Shown piece after piece: positions 12,817 to 22,593 of a DNA stretch of 64,000 nucleotides (position 1 is the first letter of the stretch; every line of letters begins with the position of its first letter). A program made the position numbers and the translations under genes. The notes beneath the pieces are model-generated. The model was not told the origin of the DNA, did not search any database, and saw only the letters and a program-made list of their open reading frames with translations. Source of the DNA: Terrimonas ferruginea DSM 30193 (GTDB taxonomy: Bacteria; Bacteroidota; Bacteroidia; Chitinophagales; Chitinophagaceae); contig NZ_KE384402.1 in the NCBI RefSeq assembly GCF_000425585.1, positions 4,204-68,203 of the forward strand. Reading direction: 5' to 3'.

Positions 12817-15075
12817 ATGAACACAATTATCAGAAAACCGCTCGCTGAGCTCGGCTACAACTTTATTCCTGCGGAATATATTCCAAAGGGAAAAGATGAA
12901 TATTACCTGCGCTTCAAACAGAATCCGCGAAAAGATTATAAGGCGCTTACGGAAAAACAAATCAATCAACTGACAGCAGCCGGCAACAGTTCCGATAACT
13001 GGGAGCATGTGCTGATCACACCCGGTACCGACGTATCACTCATCCGCAACTGTAAATTCTTCGGCCTGGTGCGCATTGGTAAACTGGAACCTTATTCTGT
13101 AGAATACCACAGCCTGAAACTACCGGTCGGCTTATACAACAGCACCATCATCAGCAGCGATATCGGTGATTATGCGGCTATCGATAATGTCAACTTTCTC
13201 AGTCACTATATCGTTGGCAATGATGTAATACTCGTTAACATCAACGAACTCGCCTGCACCTCGCACAGTAAATACGGCAACGGCATTCTCAAAAAAGGGG
13301 AAAAAGAAAACATCCGTATATGGCTCGAGCTCTGCAATGAAAATGCAGGCCGCAGCGTATTACCCTTTGATGGAATGGAAGCCGGAGATGCCTGGCTTTG
13401 GACGCGTCACCGCGATGACGAAACATTGATGCAACGATTCAAGGAACTGACCGAAAAACGCTTCGACGATGTACGCGGACGATATGCCACCATCGGCGAC
13501 CGCACGGTTATAAAAAATACCCGCATCATCAAAGACGTACTCATCGGCAGCGATGCCTATATCAAAGGCGCCAACAAACTAAAAAACCTCACGATCAACT
13601 CCTCTGCGGAAGCGCGCTCACAGATCGGAGAAGGCTGCGAACTGGTCAACGGCATTATCGGTTATGGATGCCGGGCGTTCTACGGTGTAAAAGCAGTGCG
13701 CTTTATCATGGGTTCCTTTTCCCAACTCAAATACGGCGCGCGGCTGATCAACTCGTTCCTCGGTGACAACTCAACGATCTCCTGCTGTGAGGTGCTGAAC
13801 TCACTGATCTTCCCGGCGCATGAGCAACACCACAACAACTCTTTTCTCTGTGCCGCTTTATTGGGCGGACAAAGCAATATGGCGGCCGGTGCCACGATCG
13901 GTTCCAATCATAACTCAAGAGGTGCAGACGGCGAGATTGTTGCCGGCCGTGGCTTCTGGCCCGGTCTCTGCGTGAGTCTCAAACACAATTCACGTTTCGC
14001 TTGTTTTACCCTGATCGCCAAAGGCGATTTCCCTGCAGAGCTTTCCATCCCCATTCCTTTCTCGCTTATCAGCAACGATGTAAGCCGCGACCGGCTCACG
14101 ATCATGCCCGCGTACTGGTTTATGTACAACATGTATGCGCTGGCGCGGAATGAAGGAAAATATCTCTCCCGCGACAACCGCATTCAGAAAACGCAGCACC
14201 TGGAATATGATTTCCTGGCGCCTGACAGCGTTAATGAACTGTTTGATGCCCTGGCTATTTTTTGCGAAGCAACCGGCAAAGCATTTTTCCGGCAAAAGGA
14301 GAAGAAAGCAACAGCGGAACAATGCCGTCGAAAGGGCAAAGAACTATTGGAAGAAGCGCCTGAAAAAGTAGCAGGCCTCGAAATAATGGCAGACGGTTTT
14401 GAAAATACAAAACGTCCGGTTGTATTACTGAAAGTGGCGGAAGCCTACCGCATTTTCAAAGAGCTCATCATTTATCATGGTGTGTCGCAGCTGATGGGAT
14501 ATATCCGCGAAGAAAAACCGGAAGACTTCAACACTGTGCGTGATTACTTCTTTGCTGCACCTGACCGCGAACCCTGGCTCAATGTAGGTGGACAACTGAT
14601 CGCGCGTTCTGCGGTGCAGCAATTGATCGAAAAGATCAAAACCGGAGAAGTGGATCAGTGGAGCGAGATCCATGAGTTTTACCGCCTCGAAGGCGACCAA
14701 TATATTCATAACAAACGCGGCCATGCATTTGCCGCTCTGCGTGAGTGGCTGGCACTTTCTTCTTCAGCCTTTACACCAGCAGTGTTTGCGGGCCTGCTTT
14801 CACAGGCTTTGCAGACGCGCGAATGGATGACGGAGAACATTTACACTTCCCGCGCGAAAGACTACGCCAATCCATTCCGTAAAATGGTGTATGAGACCGA
14901 AAAGGAAATGGAGAAAGTGATCGGTGCGCTGAAGGACAACAGTTTTATTCTTCAGCAACAAGAGGAACAGGAAAAATTCCGCAAAGAGATTGCGCAATTG
15001 CAGCAACTGTATGCCCCGTCCAAAACAAAAGGGCATAAAAAAACCCTCCGTAAGGAGGGGTCAGTAAGCAATTAG
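12817..15075 (+). CDS. DUF4954 family protein with left-handed beta-helix
   Basis: A 752-residue cytoplasmic protein. Residues about 70-370 show hexapeptide-like strands typical of a left-handed beta-helix (TIISSDIGDYAAIDNVNFLSHYIVGNDVILVNI and later RTVIKNTRIIKDVLIGSDAYIKGANKLKN). A second repeat group contains GGQSNMAAGATIGSNHNSRGADGEIVAGRGFWPG. This resembles nucleotidyl- and acyltransferase folds, and the family is Bacteroidota-enriched with no assigned reaction that I know. The C-terminal third is helical with a coiled coil ending near residue 735 (QQQEEQEKFRKEIAQLQQLY). Its position just after glmS suggests a link to sugar-nucleotide metabolism, which is inference only. The last 12 codons read through a terminator-like hairpin. 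Confidence 0.85.
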   Translation: MNTIIRKPLAELGYNFIPAEYIPKGKDEYYLRFKQNPRKDYKALTEKQINQLTAAGNSSDNWEHVLITPGTDVSLIRNCKFFGLVRIGKLEPYSVEYHSLKLPVGLYNSTIISSDIGDYAAIDNVNFLSHYIVGNDVILVNINELACTSHSKYGNGILKKGEKENIRIWLELCNENAGRSVLPFDGMEAGDAWLWTRHRDDETLMQRFKELTEKRFDDVRGRYATIGDRTVIKNTRIIKDVLIGSDAYIKGANKLKNLTINSSAEARSQIGEGCELVNGIIGYGCRAFYGVKAVRFIMGSFSQLKYGARLINSFLGDNSTISCCEVLNSLIFPAHEQHHNNSFLCAALLGGQSNMAAGATIGSNHNSRGADGEIVAGRGFWPGLCVSLKHNSRFACFTLIAKGDFPAELSIPIPFSLISNDVSRDRLTIMPAYWFMYNMYALARNEGKYLSRDNRIQKTQHLEYDFLAPDSVNELFDALAIFCEATGKAFFRQKEKKATAEQCRRKGKELLEEAPEKVAGLEIMADGFENTKRPVVLLKVAEAYRIFKELIIYHGVSQLMGYIREEKPEDFNTVRDYFFAAPDREPWLNVGGQLIARSAVQQLIEKIKTGEVDQWSEIHEFYRLEGDQYIHNKRGHAFAALREWLALSSSAFTPAVFAGLLSQALQTREWMTENIYTSRAKDYANPFRKMVYETEKEMEKVIGALKDNSFILQQQEEQEKFRKEIAQLQQLYAPSKTKGHKKTLRKEGSVSN
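15043..15060 (-). terminator. Terminator-like hairpin inside the DUF4954 C-terminal codons
   Basis: CCCTCC-gtaa-GGAGGG. On the minus strand it is followed by T7, while on the plus strand it has A7 before it and no T-run after. It therefore looks like a terminator for leftward transcription coming out of the 15.1-15.7 kb block, although it encodes the tail LRKEGS of DUF4954. Confidence 0.5.
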
Positions 15076-15198: not shown

Positions 15199-15385
15199 CT
15201 CCCTGGTTCGTATACACCACGACTGCTCGCAAGATTTTAAACCCTTTCAATCCGGCATCACCCCTCCGTTGGCCTCCAGACCAACGGACCTGCTCATCCC
15301 TGAGTCCGGTACGAAGTTGACCTTAACCTGTCAAAGAAACCTAGCGCTTGCTTGTTGGTCGGGAGAACAACAAGGGCGCTAAAAT
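15199..15385. repeat. 187-bp structured tandem unit, copy 1
   Basis: Begins with CTCCCTGGTTCGTATACACC, half of the family E palindrome. A 138-bp core follows (15243-15380) and matches copy 2 at 137 of 138 positions. The core has two inverted repeats: CCGTTGG/CCAACGG (15266-15272 and 15281-15287), and near its end CTTGTTG/CAACAAG nested inside AGCGC/GCGCT (about 15343-15380). The first 44 bases differ far more between copies than the core does. A 64-codon reading frame covers the unit but its start lies outside the repeat and it has no protein-like features. Confidence 0.85.
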
Positions 15386-15572
15386 CTCCCTGGTTCATGT
15401 ACATACCACAACTGTTCGGAGGATTTTAAAACCTTTCAATCCGGCATCACCCCTCCGTTGGCCTCCAGACCAACGGACCTGCTCATCCCTGAGTCCGGTA
15501 CGAAGTTGACCTTAACCTGTCAAAGAAACCTCGCGCTTGCTTGTTGGTCGGGAGAACAACAAGGGCGCTAAC
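15386..15572. repeat. 187-bp structured tandem unit, copy 2
   Basis: Second direct copy, exactly 187 bp downstream of the first. Its core (15432-15569) differs by a single A-to-C change just before the terminal hairpin, which turns the outer pair AGCGC/GCGCT into a four-pair GCGC match. A third, broken copy begins at about 15588 and contains only the palindrome part. Confidence 0.85.
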
Positions 15573-15587
15573 TAAAGAGAGTAAACT

Positions 15588-15618
15588 CTCCCTTGGTTCG
15601 TGTGTAAACGAACCAGGG
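15588..15618. repeat. Family E palindrome with GGGA/TCCC extension
   Basis: CTCCCTTGGTTCG, then TGTGTAAA, then CGAACCAGGGA: an inverted repeat around a variant of the GGTTCGTGTATACACGAACC core. It is the start of an incomplete third 187-bp copy. Confidence 0.7.
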
Positions 15619-15623
15619 AAATC

Positions 15624-15693
15624 CATTCACGATTCACCATTGACGACTGACGATTCACCATTGACGACTGACGATTCACCAACGACGATTCAC
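15624..15693. repeat. Family C arm (7-base ATTCACG/ATTGACG units)
   Basis: About nine units of the pattern ATTSACN or CGACTGA, running up to the A-run of the terminator at 15699. It is the mirror orientation of the plus-strand TGAATGG arms found elsewhere. Confidence 0.7.
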
Positions 15694-15744: not shown

Positions 15745-15987
15745 TTATTTAGCCTTTGCGCTGTCAACTTTCATTTTCAGAGAGTCGAGTTTTTGGTTAG
15801 CGCTGTCAACCTTGTTGTTCAGGGTGTCAGCAGCCATTTTCTGAGCAGCAGCAATGCTGTCAGCTTGTACGCGAGCTACAGAATCAGCGATGCGTACAGA
15901 ATCTTCAGCGCTTACTTTGTTTTCAGCTTCGTTGTTGCAAGCTGCGAAAGCAACTGCGATGAACGCGATAGCGAATACTTTTTTCAT
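15745..15987 (-). CDS. Small helical lipoprotein
   Basis: 80 residues from MKKVFAIAFIAVAFAACNNE, a lipoprotein signal with lipobox FAAC. A longer frame from 16041 covers the promoter and is not the start. The mature part is a single low-complexity amphipathic helix rich in Ala, Asp, Ser, Lys and Val, with heptad-like VDSA/LDSL repeats (NKVDSANQKLDSLKMKVDSA). It looks like a small coiled-coil outer-membrane-anchored protein of the Lpp kind in form, though not in sequence. I do not recognise the family. A strong promoter and a terminator frame it as a one-gene unit. Confidence 0.8.
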   Translation of the reverse strand: MKKVFAIAFIAVAFAACNNEAENKVSAEDSVRIADSVARVQADSIAAAQKMAADTLNNKVDSANQKLDSLKMKVDSAKAK

Positions 15988-16011
15988 TTGTGGTTTTAAT
16001 TTTTGAGGAGG

Positions 16012-16042
16012 CAAAAATACTCGCCGTTTTGATTTCTGCAAA
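16012..16042 (-). promoter_or_regulatory. Promoter TTTG-N19-TATTTTTG of the small lipoprotein
   Basis: TTTG (16039-16042) and TATTTTTG (16012-16019) on the minus strand with exactly 19 bases between. The leader is about 20 nt. Confidence 0.75.
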
Positions 16043-19169: not shown

Positions 19170-19241
<72 letters not shown>

Positions 19242-20245: not shown

Positions 20246-20261
20246 TACCTTCGCAGCCACA

Positions 20262-20349
20262 GATCCCGGGGTGTCCCCCGATGAATCATCGGAGGGGCTG
20301 AGATAATACCCGTAAGACCTGATCAGGGTAATGCCTGCGCAGGGAGGAG
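20262..20349 (+). promoter_or_regulatory. TPP riboswitch (THI element)
   Basis: The conserved aptamer is visible: P1 TCCC/GGGA, GGGGTGTC, a variable stem CGATG-aat-CATCG with flanking CCCC/GGGG, the pyrimidine-binding GGCTGAGATAATACCCG, GACCTGATCAGGGTAATGCC, and the closing GCGCAGGGAGG. About 75 bases separate it from the ATG at 20425. I see no strong terminator there. A weak GGGAGG/TTTCCCTCTC pairing followed by ATTATTTTTT is possible, so the expression platform is uncertain. It should reduce expression of the TonB receptor when thiamin pyrophosphate is high. Confidence 0.93.
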
Positions 20350-20424
20350 GTTTGACTACTGTCCCTTTCTTCTACTACAGCATTTCCCTCTCATTATTTT
20401 TTAACAGCTAAAACATTAAAAAAA

Positions 20425-22593
20425 ATGAAGAGGATGATTATGACCGGCTGCCTGCTATCGGCAGCTATGTTATCCTTTGGCCAGACAACAGCACAACGTG
20501 ACAGCTTCGATCTGCTATCGCCTGTGGAAGTCCGCGCAGTACGCGCCGGCGAAAAAGCCCCGTTCGCAAAATCCAATTTGTCAAAAACCGAAATTGCCAA
20601 ACGCAACCTCGGGCAGGACATTCCTTTTGTCCTCAACCTCACACCTTCCGTAGTAGTAAATTCCGATGCCGGCACGGGCATCGGTTACACAGGGCTACGC
20701 ATCCGCGGTACCGACGCCACCCGTATCAACATTGCGTTGAACGGTATTCCCTACAACGACGCAGAAAGCCAGGGTACCTTTTTTGTTAATCTCCCCGACT
20801 TCACGTCTTCCGTCAACTCCATCCAGATTCAACGCGGCGTGGGTACTTCTTCCAATGGTACCGGTGCGTTTGGCGCTACCGTCAGCCTCTCTACCAATGA
20901 AGTCAACACCAAACCTTACGCTGAATTCAACAACGCGTACGGTTCATTCGACACCTGGAAGAACACGGCCAAAGCCGGCACAGGGCTTATCGATGATCAT
21001 TTTACCGTTGACGCGCGCCTCAGCCGTATCAGCAGCAGCGGCTACATCGACCGTGCTTCAAGTGATCTGCAATCTTTTTATTTATCCGGCGCTTACCTTA
21101 ACAAAGGCAGTTCCGTAAGGCTGAATATTTTTTCCGGTAAGGAAAAAACCTACCAGGCCTGGAACGGCGTACCCGAAAACCTCAAGGAAACCAACCGCAC
21201 CTACAATTCTGCCGGCACCGACCGGCCAGGCGCGCCGTACGACAACGAAACAGACAATTACACGCAAACGCATTACCAGCTTTTCTTTGATCAGAAGTTG
21301 AATACCTCCTGGCAATTCAACACTGCATTGTACCTCACGCGTGGCAAGGGCTACTATGAAAACTACAAAGGCAATGAAAAACTGAGTAAATACGGCCTTC
21401 CCGATCTGGTATTGGGCGACACTACTATTTCACGCACCGACCTCGTTCGCCAGAAATGGCTGGACAATTATTTTTATGGACAAATTCTTTCGCTGCAATA
21501 CCGTAAGGATCGCCACGAATGGGTAATCGGCGGCGGATGGAGCCGTTACCAGGGCGACCATTTCGGTAGAGTGATCTGGGCGAAATATGGCTTTGATGAA
21601 GGTTACCGGTATTACGACAACGATGCGTGGAAAACGGATGTGAATGTTTATACCAAATGGCAATACCAGCTTACAACCGCTTTTAGTTTATTCGCAGATC
21701 TGCAATACCGCCGCGTGCAACACCGCATGAACGGCTTTGAAGAAAACCCTGCACTCACCATCGACCGGTCTTTTAATTTCTTTAATCCCAAAGCCGGTAT
21801 TACTTATCGTCAGAACGGGTGGCAGGCTTTTGTGAGCTATGCGCACGCGGGCAAAGAACCCAACCGCGACGACTTCCAGGCAAACCTGAACAACCAGCCG
21901 AAAAAAGAAACCCTGCATGATTTTGAAGCAGGTGTCGAAAAACGCACGTCGCGTTTCAGTGCAGGCGTCAACCTGTATTACATGTTGTACAAAGATCAGC
22001 TGGTACAAACAGGCATGATCAATGATGTAGGAGCTTACACGCGTATCAACGTGCCCAACAGTTACAGAATGGGTGTGGAATTACAAGGTGGCGTAATCAT
22101 CAACAAATGGCTGAACGCAACTGCCAACCTTACGCTCAGCCGCAACAAGATCAAAGCCTTCACCGAATTCCTCGACGACTACGACGCAGATTTTGAATGG
22201 ATCGGTCAGCAGTCGGTGCAGCATCGCAATACCGATATTGCCTTCTCTCCCGCCCTTGTTGCCGGCGGCAGCATCAACATCCTGCCGGTGAAGAATTTTG
22301 AGATCAGTCTGCTTGAAAAATATGTCGGCCGCCAGTACATGGACAATACGCAAAATAAAGAACGTTCACTCGACGATTTCTTCACGCAGGATCTGCGCGT
22401 CCTTTACACCTTACGCGGTAAGCGCCTCGGCGAATGGACACTTATCGGTCAGGTCAACAACGTTTTCAACCGCCGCTACGAACCTAATGGTTATACTTAC
22501 AGTTATGTGTTCGACGGCAGCATCACTGCGGATAAGTTTTATATGCCGATGGCAGGAACGAATTTTATGGTGGGTGTGAATGTGAGGCTGTAG
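20425..22593 (+). CDS. TonB-dependent receptor, probable thiamin uptake
   Basis: A 722-residue outer-membrane beta-barrel. Signal peptide MKRMIMTGCLLSAAMLSFGQ, then a plug domain (about residues 45-165) with VEVRAVRAGEKAPFAKSNLSK, LNLTPSVVVNSDAGTGIGYTGLRIRGTDATRINIALNGIPYNDAESQG and IQRGVGTSSNGTGAFGA. The barrel ends with MAGTNFMVGVNVRL, the usual aromatic/aliphatic terminal strand. There is no CarboxypepD or SusC-type N-terminal extension and no SusD partner, so it is not a glycan receptor. The upstream TPP riboswitch points to thiamin or a precursor as ligand (inference from established TPP regulation of outer-membrane receptors in Bacteroidota). The stop codon opens straight into a family B array. 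Confidence 0.92.
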   Translation: MKRMIMTGCLLSAAMLSFGQTTAQRDSFDLLSPVEVRAVRAGEKAPFAKSNLSKTEIAKRNLGQDIPFVLNLTPSVVVNSDAGTGIGYTGLRIRGTDATRINIALNGIPYNDAESQGTFFVNLPDFTSSVNSIQIQRGVGTSSNGTGAFGATVSLSTNEVNTKPYAEFNNAYGSFDTWKNTAKAGTGLIDDHFTVDARLSRISSSGYIDRASSDLQSFYLSGAYLNKGSSVRLNIFSGKEKTYQAWNGVPENLKETNRTYNSAGTDRPGAPYDNETDNYTQTHYQLFFDQKLNTSWQFNTALYLTRGKGYYENYKGNEKLSKYGLPDLVLGDTTISRTDLVRQKWLDNYFYGQILSLQYRKDRHEWVIGGGWSRYQGDHFGRVIWAKYGFDEGYRYYDNDAWKTDVNVYTKWQYQLTTAFSLFADLQYRRVQHRMNGFEENPALTIDRSFNFFNPKAGITYRQNGWQAFVSYAHAGKEPNRDDFQANLNNQPKKETLHDFEAGVEKRTSRFSAGVNLYYMLYKDQLVQTGMINDVGAYTRINVPNSYRMGVELQGGVIINKWLNATANLTLSRNKIKAFTEFLDDYDADFEWIGQQSVQHRNTDIAFSPALVAGGSINILPVKNFEISLLEKYVGRQYMDNTQNKERSLDDFFTQDLRVLYTLRGKRLGEWTLIGQVNNVFNRRYEPNGYTYSYVFDGSITADKFYMPMAGTNFMVGVNVRL

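Follow-up and report, generated by a model that had tools for sequence, protein, structure and literature searches.

A tandem intergenic repeat in Terrimonas ferruginea is a decayed copy of a dispersed mobile element

Between two convergent open reading frames (ORFs) of Terrimonas ferruginea DSM 30193 (12817-15075, plus strand, and 15745-16041, minus strand) lie two direct, non-coding units at 15199-15572; all such positions refer to the window, that is, the whole stretch of 64,000 nucleotides from contig NZ_KE384402.1 that was analysed. The question raised by this locus is why two adjacent copies retain a nearly invariant core next to a diverged leader. The original prediction, made from the sequence alone, considered selection or gene conversion acting on the core, as for a structured RNA or for a mobile element lacking its own enzyme. 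Our analysis identified the repeat as a decayed, tandemly doubled copy of a dispersed mobile element, and the apparent RNA candidate appears to resolve into three nested repeat layers: a target palindrome, an IS4-like MITE and a REP doublet.

Results and discussion

Layout of the tandem repeat

As had been proposed, each unit opens with a palindrome half (at 15199 and 15386), and the predicted spacing of exactly 187 bp holds for these starts; for the cores (15243-15380 and 15432-15569) the spacing is 189 bp, owing to a 2-base gap between the aligned leaders. The described contrast between a near-identical core and a diverged leader is also confirmed, with 137 of the 138 core columns identical and differing columns amounting to 9 of 46 in the leader versus 1 of 138 in the core (Fisher p = 1.6e-5, for a boundary picked post hoc, when the data had already been seen). 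No ORF of at least 80 amino acids was found at the locus, in agreement with the view that no protein is evident. The features are as follows.

15199-15614, plus strand: whole remnant, comprising a host palindrome half, two left-hand element units in tandem, a linker and the closing host palindrome
15199-15214, plus strand: worn left half of the host palindrome (CTCCCTGGTTCG) plus TATA loop, to be compared with the 135 genome sites of GGTTCGTG-N4-CACGAACC (at most one mismatch)
15215-15232, plus strand: left terminal inverted repeat of unit 1 (degenerate CACCACGACTGCTCGCAA)
15243-15380, plus strand: core of unit 1 (REP-like doublet and spacer)
15266-15287, minus strand: hairpin 1 of unit 1, GTTGGTC-N4-GACCAAC type with one mismatch; REP on the minus strand, as judged by loop and 3' flank
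15351-15374, plus strand: hairpin 2 of unit 1, GTTGGTC-N4-GACCAAC type with one mismatch
15386-15403, plus strand: palindrome half and loop region of unit 2 (CTCCCTGGTTCATGTACA)
15404-15421, plus strand: left terminal inverted repeat of unit 2 (TACCACAACTGTTCGGAG)
15432-15569, plus strand: core of unit 2
15455-15476, minus strand: hairpin 1 of unit 2
15540-15563, plus strand: hairpin 2 of unit 2; the right arm of the element is absent beyond
15577-15614, plus strand: linker GAGAGTAAACTCTCCC, then the closing host palindrome GGTTCGTG-TGTA-AACGAACC

The GTTGGTC-N4-GACCAAC hairpins, two per unit, are separated by 86 bp and point in opposite directions as judged by their loops and 3' flanks. The predicted CCGTTGG/CCAACGG arms are present in both units (hairpin 1), as are the CTTGTTG/CAACAAG arms of the second, nested hairpin; the AGCGC arm assigned to the latter exists in unit 1 alone (15343), and unit 2 reads CGCGC. 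All four hairpins have one mismatch each relative to the genome consensus, and sites of this type number four in the window versus 0.13 expected. The window copy comprises left ends only, with no right terminal inverted repeat, and what had been taken for a third broken copy proved to be the nearly complete host palindrome at 15595-15614 that follows the linker, with no element core inside.

A dispersed element in the T. ferruginea genome

A search of the own genome (4.69 Mb, 30 contigs) with a 380-base query from the window locus returned 54 match rows, and many of the copies reach well to the right of the window unit and terminate there in the left end repeated in inverted orientation (28 of the 30 loci were inspected together with their flanks). 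The element consensus of 244 bp was built from 10 near-full copies; its comparison with the fetched genome stretches gave 57 rows at 81-100% identity, including 42 rows of at least 80 bases, which are distributed over 33 loci on 14 contigs and of which 12 are near full length. The full element, of about 244 bp, can be written as CACCAYAACTGTTCGGAA...TTCCGAACAGTTRTGGTG and is often flanked by a 4-bp direct repeat. In the fuller copies, the 18-bp ends CACCAYAACTGTTCGGAA / TTCCGAACAGTTRTGGTG are paired as terminal inverted repeats (TIRs), and TIR sites with at most three mismatches numbered 47 in the own genome versus 8 for a reversed control.

Compared with what is expected of a MITE, the element is short and carries no transposase gene (244-bp consensus; no ORF of at least 80 amino acids in the window copy), has TIRs in its fuller copies and is associated with a target-site duplication (exact direct 4-mers in 13 of 25 cases versus 1.5 expected). 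Ends common to an autonomous element were found in other genomes only, at one complete IS (L147) and six more loci. The core is not single-copy, and the possibility that the window pair is a mere local tandem duplication of ordinary intergenic DNA, which the tandem layout with its common linker would suggest, is refuted by the dispersed copies at 33 loci on 14 contigs; the same ends also recur in other species, and we give this reading practically no chance. One full copy had no match in either the plasmid or the phage collection, and a plasmid or phage origin was rejected on this basis. Judged by searches of the open-access literature on Bacteroidota MITEs, IS4-like elements and palindrome targets, covering titles and abstract openings, the element appears to be undescribed.

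By an ORF heuristic, 15 of 27 copies are located between convergent genes, and the corresponding figure among adjacent ORF pairs of the window is 13 of 57 (p = 0.006); the solo host palindromes on contig C1 occupy such positions in 7 of 15 cases (p = 0.10, same heuristic). REPs have been described as often located between convergent genes (PMC1525189).

Evaluation of a structured RNA

According to an alternative hypothesis, the core is a structured non-coding or cis-regulatory RNA under selection, and its near-identity reflects function. The two hairpins per unit, the strong conservation of the hairpin sequences between copies and the many copies between convergent genes (15 of 27), where a role at 3' ends is thinkable, are in its favor. 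However, the search for compensatory changes revealed no two-sided change to another standard pair at the 19 hairpin pairs of 30 aligned cores; changes were confined to one side and usually broke the pair, apart from three single G-U cells and one cell in which both sides were broken, and each of the window hairpins is itself broken. Plus-strand RNA folding of the two window units was unremarkable (z = -1.04 and -0.87; 29 and 35 of 200 shuffles folded at least as well). A full copy with its palindrome, treated as single-stranded DNA, gave z = -5.8, a strong folding that the inverted ends require. No Rfam family was found at the gathering level at the window locus, and the five matches of a further Rfam search were all far below the gathering scores. 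In addition, the copies vary in truncation, and a 193-base query found nothing in the only same-genus genome and, in the other relatives, no more than two short matches of 52 and 36 bases. A structured RNA was rejected on covariation, plus-strand folding and Rfam, and we regard selection for such a function as very improbable.

Unequal exchange or local gene conversion would explain the matching cores without RNA selection. The window units differ by a distance of 0.008 in the core versus 0.20 in the leader, and units 1 and 2 of the array on contig C4 by 0.023 versus 0.19; the mean core distance among nine solo copies is 0.132. The gene conversion invoked in the original prediction is compatible with these two pairs, and the pattern is not seen in the third C4 unit (core distance of 0.135 to both other units) or in the C3 array (leader 0.00-0.03, core 0.023-0.105). 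The sequence GAGTAAATTCTCCC occurs to the left of the window array and also between C4 units 2 and 3, suggesting exchange between loci. Leader types common to the C10 and C4 arrays were a by-eye impression that the distances do not support (0.17 for the second units, 0.13 for C10 unit 2 and C4 unit 1), and the idea was rejected.

Apparent insertion into the loop of a repeated palindrome

The host palindrome GGTTCGTG-N4-CACGAACC is present at 135 sites in the own genome when at most one mismatch is allowed, and its control gave 0. Beyond many element ends there is a 4-mer followed by CACGAACC or CACCAAC, and most ends fall within the loop of palindromes such as GGTTCGTG-N4-CACGAACC. Among the 36 own ends with at most two mismatches (array units counted singly), 21 have an exact N4-CAC and 29 are within two mismatches of the 8-base palindrome arm; exact N4-CAC is missing at 15 of these 36, and at 9 of 42 ends from Bacteroidota described below.

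An exact 4-bp direct repeat was found in 13 of 25 two-ended elements of the own and other genomes, a count that omits copies missing one end, compared with a shuffle mean of 1.5 and with none of 20,000 shuffles as high. Exact direct 4-mers border 8 of the 14 own pairs (shuffle 1.7), which were read by eye, with by-eye placement of the degraded left ends at C2:472349, C7, C4:104514 and C18, and 5 of the 11 pairs in other genomes (shuffle 1.2). Two of the 8 exact own pairs are TATA, which is unable to tell direct from inverted, and four of the 6 inexact own pairs are off by one base.

The flanks tend to form both arms of the repeated palindrome GTTSGTG-N4-CACSAAC, with the 4-mer of the direct repeat as its loop. 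Over 10 flanking bases, arm pairing averaged 8.0 for 10 elements of other genomes and 6.9 for 10 own elements, versus 2.66 at random places; L147 and the four own pairs with by-eye left ends are omitted from this score, and the own mean is lowered by the C9 element, whose score of 2 is an error arising from a right end set one base short. The palindrome GTTSGTG-N4-CACSAAC occurs in 31 of 99 genomes including the own genome, mostly at a few sites per genome, with 125 sites in the own genome and 0 in the only same-genus genome, and its reversed control gave a single match each in 4 of the 99.

Element-free host palindromes of the GGTTCGTG-N4-CACGAACC type are found in the window at 2100, 22641, 23464, 32167 and 41568 (0-2 mismatches). 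Same-arm palindromes in relatives have AAAA/TTTT loops in G005 and nearly all of G013 and form a TCCC or TCCT cluster in G058, and they are also present in G088; among the places listed, the loops in these four genomes seem to be genome-specific. At C7:61615-61660 (L019), a completed host palindrome, GGTTCGTG-TATA-CATGAACC, stands in place of the left end of an element copy, as if the arm had been copied by a snap-back template switch.

Relatives in other Bacteroidota and an IS4-like transposase

Scanning species genomes for the exact 18-bp end yielded 47 stretches with 50 ends. Four of these stretches are outside Bacteroidota and do not follow the N4-CAC rule, and therefore look like chance matches; the other 43 are labelled as Bacteroidota, except one called only 'uncultured bacterium'. 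N4-CAC was present at 33 of the 42 Bacteroidota ends with enough flank, several of which share one assembly (four ends were omitted for short flank: L119, L121 and L151, none; L147 right end, 6 bases), and in the metagenome-assembled genome CANIQT the rule is obeyed by 10 of 11 ends. Five of the loci (L109, L117, L123, L129 and L144) are two-ended elements of 238-350 bp with a flank pairing of 7-9 out of 10.

A 1298-bp element at L147 (6697-7994) encodes a 391-aa IS4-like transposase, which matches the IS4 family profile NF033592 (147 bits, cut-off 115) and PF01609 and contains the Y(2)R(3)E(6)K motif. The DDE domain, the YREK motif and the family profile by which an IS4 enzyme is recognized are hence all found in the presumed enzyme. 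Moreover, the C-terminus of a homologous transposase lies just inside the TIR at 6 of 6 further loci (L110, L111, L127, L128, L146 and L153, in two other assemblies). The target duplication of about one helix turn tabled for IS4 elements (8-13 bp, PMC2266710) was not seen, as the MITEs have 4 bp, and L147, the lone complete IS observed, has no direct repeat: its flanking 4-mers, TCCC and GGGA, are inverted, with 6 flank bases on one side. The 4-mers at L125 (GTCT/AGAC) also form an exact inverted repeat, and those at L139 (AGGA/TCCC), L137, L124 and L123 have no exact match.

An autonomous partner was not found in the own genome by TIR pairs, protein search or PF01609. The genome showed no longer element in which such ends enclose a transposase, and the protein search returned one 83-aa, 36% match at a contig edge (C12:7-255), an IS4-like fragment whose 1,755-base locus has no TIR with at most five mismatches. 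PF01609 was detected at two places only, one of which is this fragment; for the gene at C16:49716, inspected over 501 bases upstream, the TIR-site scan lists no site on C16. PADLOC had no match for the transposase or the RAYT, and a link to defence systems was rejected accordingly. No solved structure was found for the transposase by sequence.

A REP-like doublet and the RAYT gene

Exact GTTGGTC-N4-GACCAAC sites number 77 in the own genome, with none in the same-genus genome and one in 1 of 17 other relatives. The sole Y1_Tnp match in the own genome is a RAYT (NF047646 REP_Tyr_transpos, 92 bits, cut-off 80), and these hairpins flank it on both sides, between C3:152961 and 154294; on one side, they lie mostly within a copy of the 244-bp element. 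Two hallmarks of a REPIN were found, namely two inverted REP hairpins with a spacer and a cognate RAYT near the same REPs.

The breakpoints of the truncated copies also bear on the core. Among the rows of at least 80 bases, 26 fall short of the right end, and 16 of these, from 12 loci, break off at consensus 162-170, immediately after hairpin 2, as do the window units. Three of the 12 loci have a right TIR no more than 26 bases further on and therefore represent internal deletions; at the other 9, no right TIR (at most seven mismatches) is present in the next 150 bases. These breakpoints fit a REPIN-like module within the MITE, with deletion at the hairpin as the alternative, and together with the location of the RAYT they may point to a role of this enzyme in moving the core. 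Short tandem arrays of the REP-like hairpin end were also observed inside copies, at C1:102700-102800 and C5:94859-95048.

Alternatively, what disperses could be chiefly the REPIN-like hairpin pair, mobilised by the RAYT via single-stranded DNA, with the outer ends and palindromes being secondary. The hairpins cluster at the sole RAYT found, 9 loci break off beyond hairpin 2 and lack a right TIR over the following 150 bases, two loci (C12:95751 and C5:194433) consist of a core without TIRs, and Pseudomonas fluorescens REPINs are reported to form tandem clusters including flanking sequence (PMC3116915). However, the fuller copies have TIRs, 4-bp direct repeats and palindrome targeting, all of which suit a DDE transposase. 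Y1 enzymes such as those of IS200/IS605 are not known to leave a target duplication. Truncation at the hairpin may also result from deletion or recombination, three internal deletions sharing this breakpoint, and we consider it unlikely that the hairpin pair is the main dispersing unit.

Origin of the window repeat and comparison with known systems

Most probably, then, the window unit is the left part of a non-autonomous MITE of about 244 bp that belongs to a palindrome-loop-targeting IS4-like family, with a core of the REPIN type, and no RNA function needs to be invoked. The suggestion of a mobile element lacking its own enzyme is borne out by the dispersed copies, the inverted ends, the 4-bp direct repeats, the common insertion rule and the transposase-bearing relatives elsewhere. 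An IS4-like transposase acting in trans would formerly have moved the element in this genome, presumably through cuts staggered by 4 bp about the palindrome centre, and a REPIN-type module may have been carried in the MITE, perhaps with its own mobility. The window copy would have lost its right arm and undergone a tandem duplication of its left part, with unequal exchange or gene conversion preserving the similarity of the cores as the leaders drifted apart; what remains is not expected to be mobile any longer.

The REP-targeting IS ISPsy8, ISRm22, ISPpu9/10 and IS1397 likewise insert into repeated extragenic palindromes and generate short direct duplications (PMC1525189); ISPsy8 and ISRm22 do so at the symmetry axis of the palindrome (Tobes and Pareja 2006, PMC1525189). 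ISRm22 is an IS4 family member, and some imperfect duplications were attributed to recombination in the same report (PMC1525189). The repeat here, which equals the loop, has 4 bp, compared with 6 bp for ISRm22 and 3 bp for ISPsy8 (PMC1525189). The element further differs from the REP-targeting IS presented there in its Bacteroidota host, in its target GTTSGTG-N4-CACSAAC and in that only the enzyme-less form was found in its own genome. The L147 transposase shares the NF033592 score and the Y(2)R(3)E(6)K motif with the IS4 family; in the table rows examined, IS4 subgroups have 8-13 bp duplications (De Palmenaer et al. 2008, PMC2266710), compared with which the 4-bp repeats are unusual for the family where the transposase scores. 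Nearest by duplication length is IS701, for which exactly four is given for almost all elements (PMC2266710).

With the REPIN/RAYT system (Bertels and Rainey 2011, PMC3116915), the element shares an inverted REP doublet, a RAYT with nearby hairpins and tandem clusters including flanks; unlike in the system described there, the doublet lies inside a TIR-bearing element, and its mobility by the RAYT is hypothetical. BrickBuilt of Porphyromonas gingivalis (PMC4596501) is likewise a MITE from Bacteroidota, contains internal tandem repeats and resembles resident IS elements in its TIRs, but these TIRs are different, tabled next to IS5-family ones, and the string 'palindrom' is absent from the main text of that report.

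The insertion rule, i.e. the loop of GTTSGTG-N4-CACSAAC, is testable and was seen in several Bacteroidota. As the arms are similar and the loop varies, whether a DDE transposase reads the hairpin or the sequence can be tested directly in this IS4-like family. A broader proposal, which is possible though doubtful at present, is that Bacteroidota hold an unrecognised group of IS4-like transposons and MITEs whose transposase mostly targets perfect, repeated palindromes at their centre, generates a duplicate of the 4-base loop irrespective of its sequence and may recognise an extruded hairpin (cruciform) and not a linear site. Both junctions would regain GTG-N4-CAC with every insertion, so that layers of palindrome, MITE and REPIN could grow by nesting or in tandem.

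Other features of the window

Heptamer-based tandem repeats of the type GATTCACCATTGAC or AAGTATTAAGTAATA are located at 15623-15692, and such repeats also border many element copies and palindromes. Elsewhere in the window, a tRNA is present at 19170-19241 (minus strand), and a TPP riboswitch at 20257-20362 (plus strand) lies ahead of a 722-aa ORF (20425-22593) that appears, by eye, to encode a TonB-type receptor.
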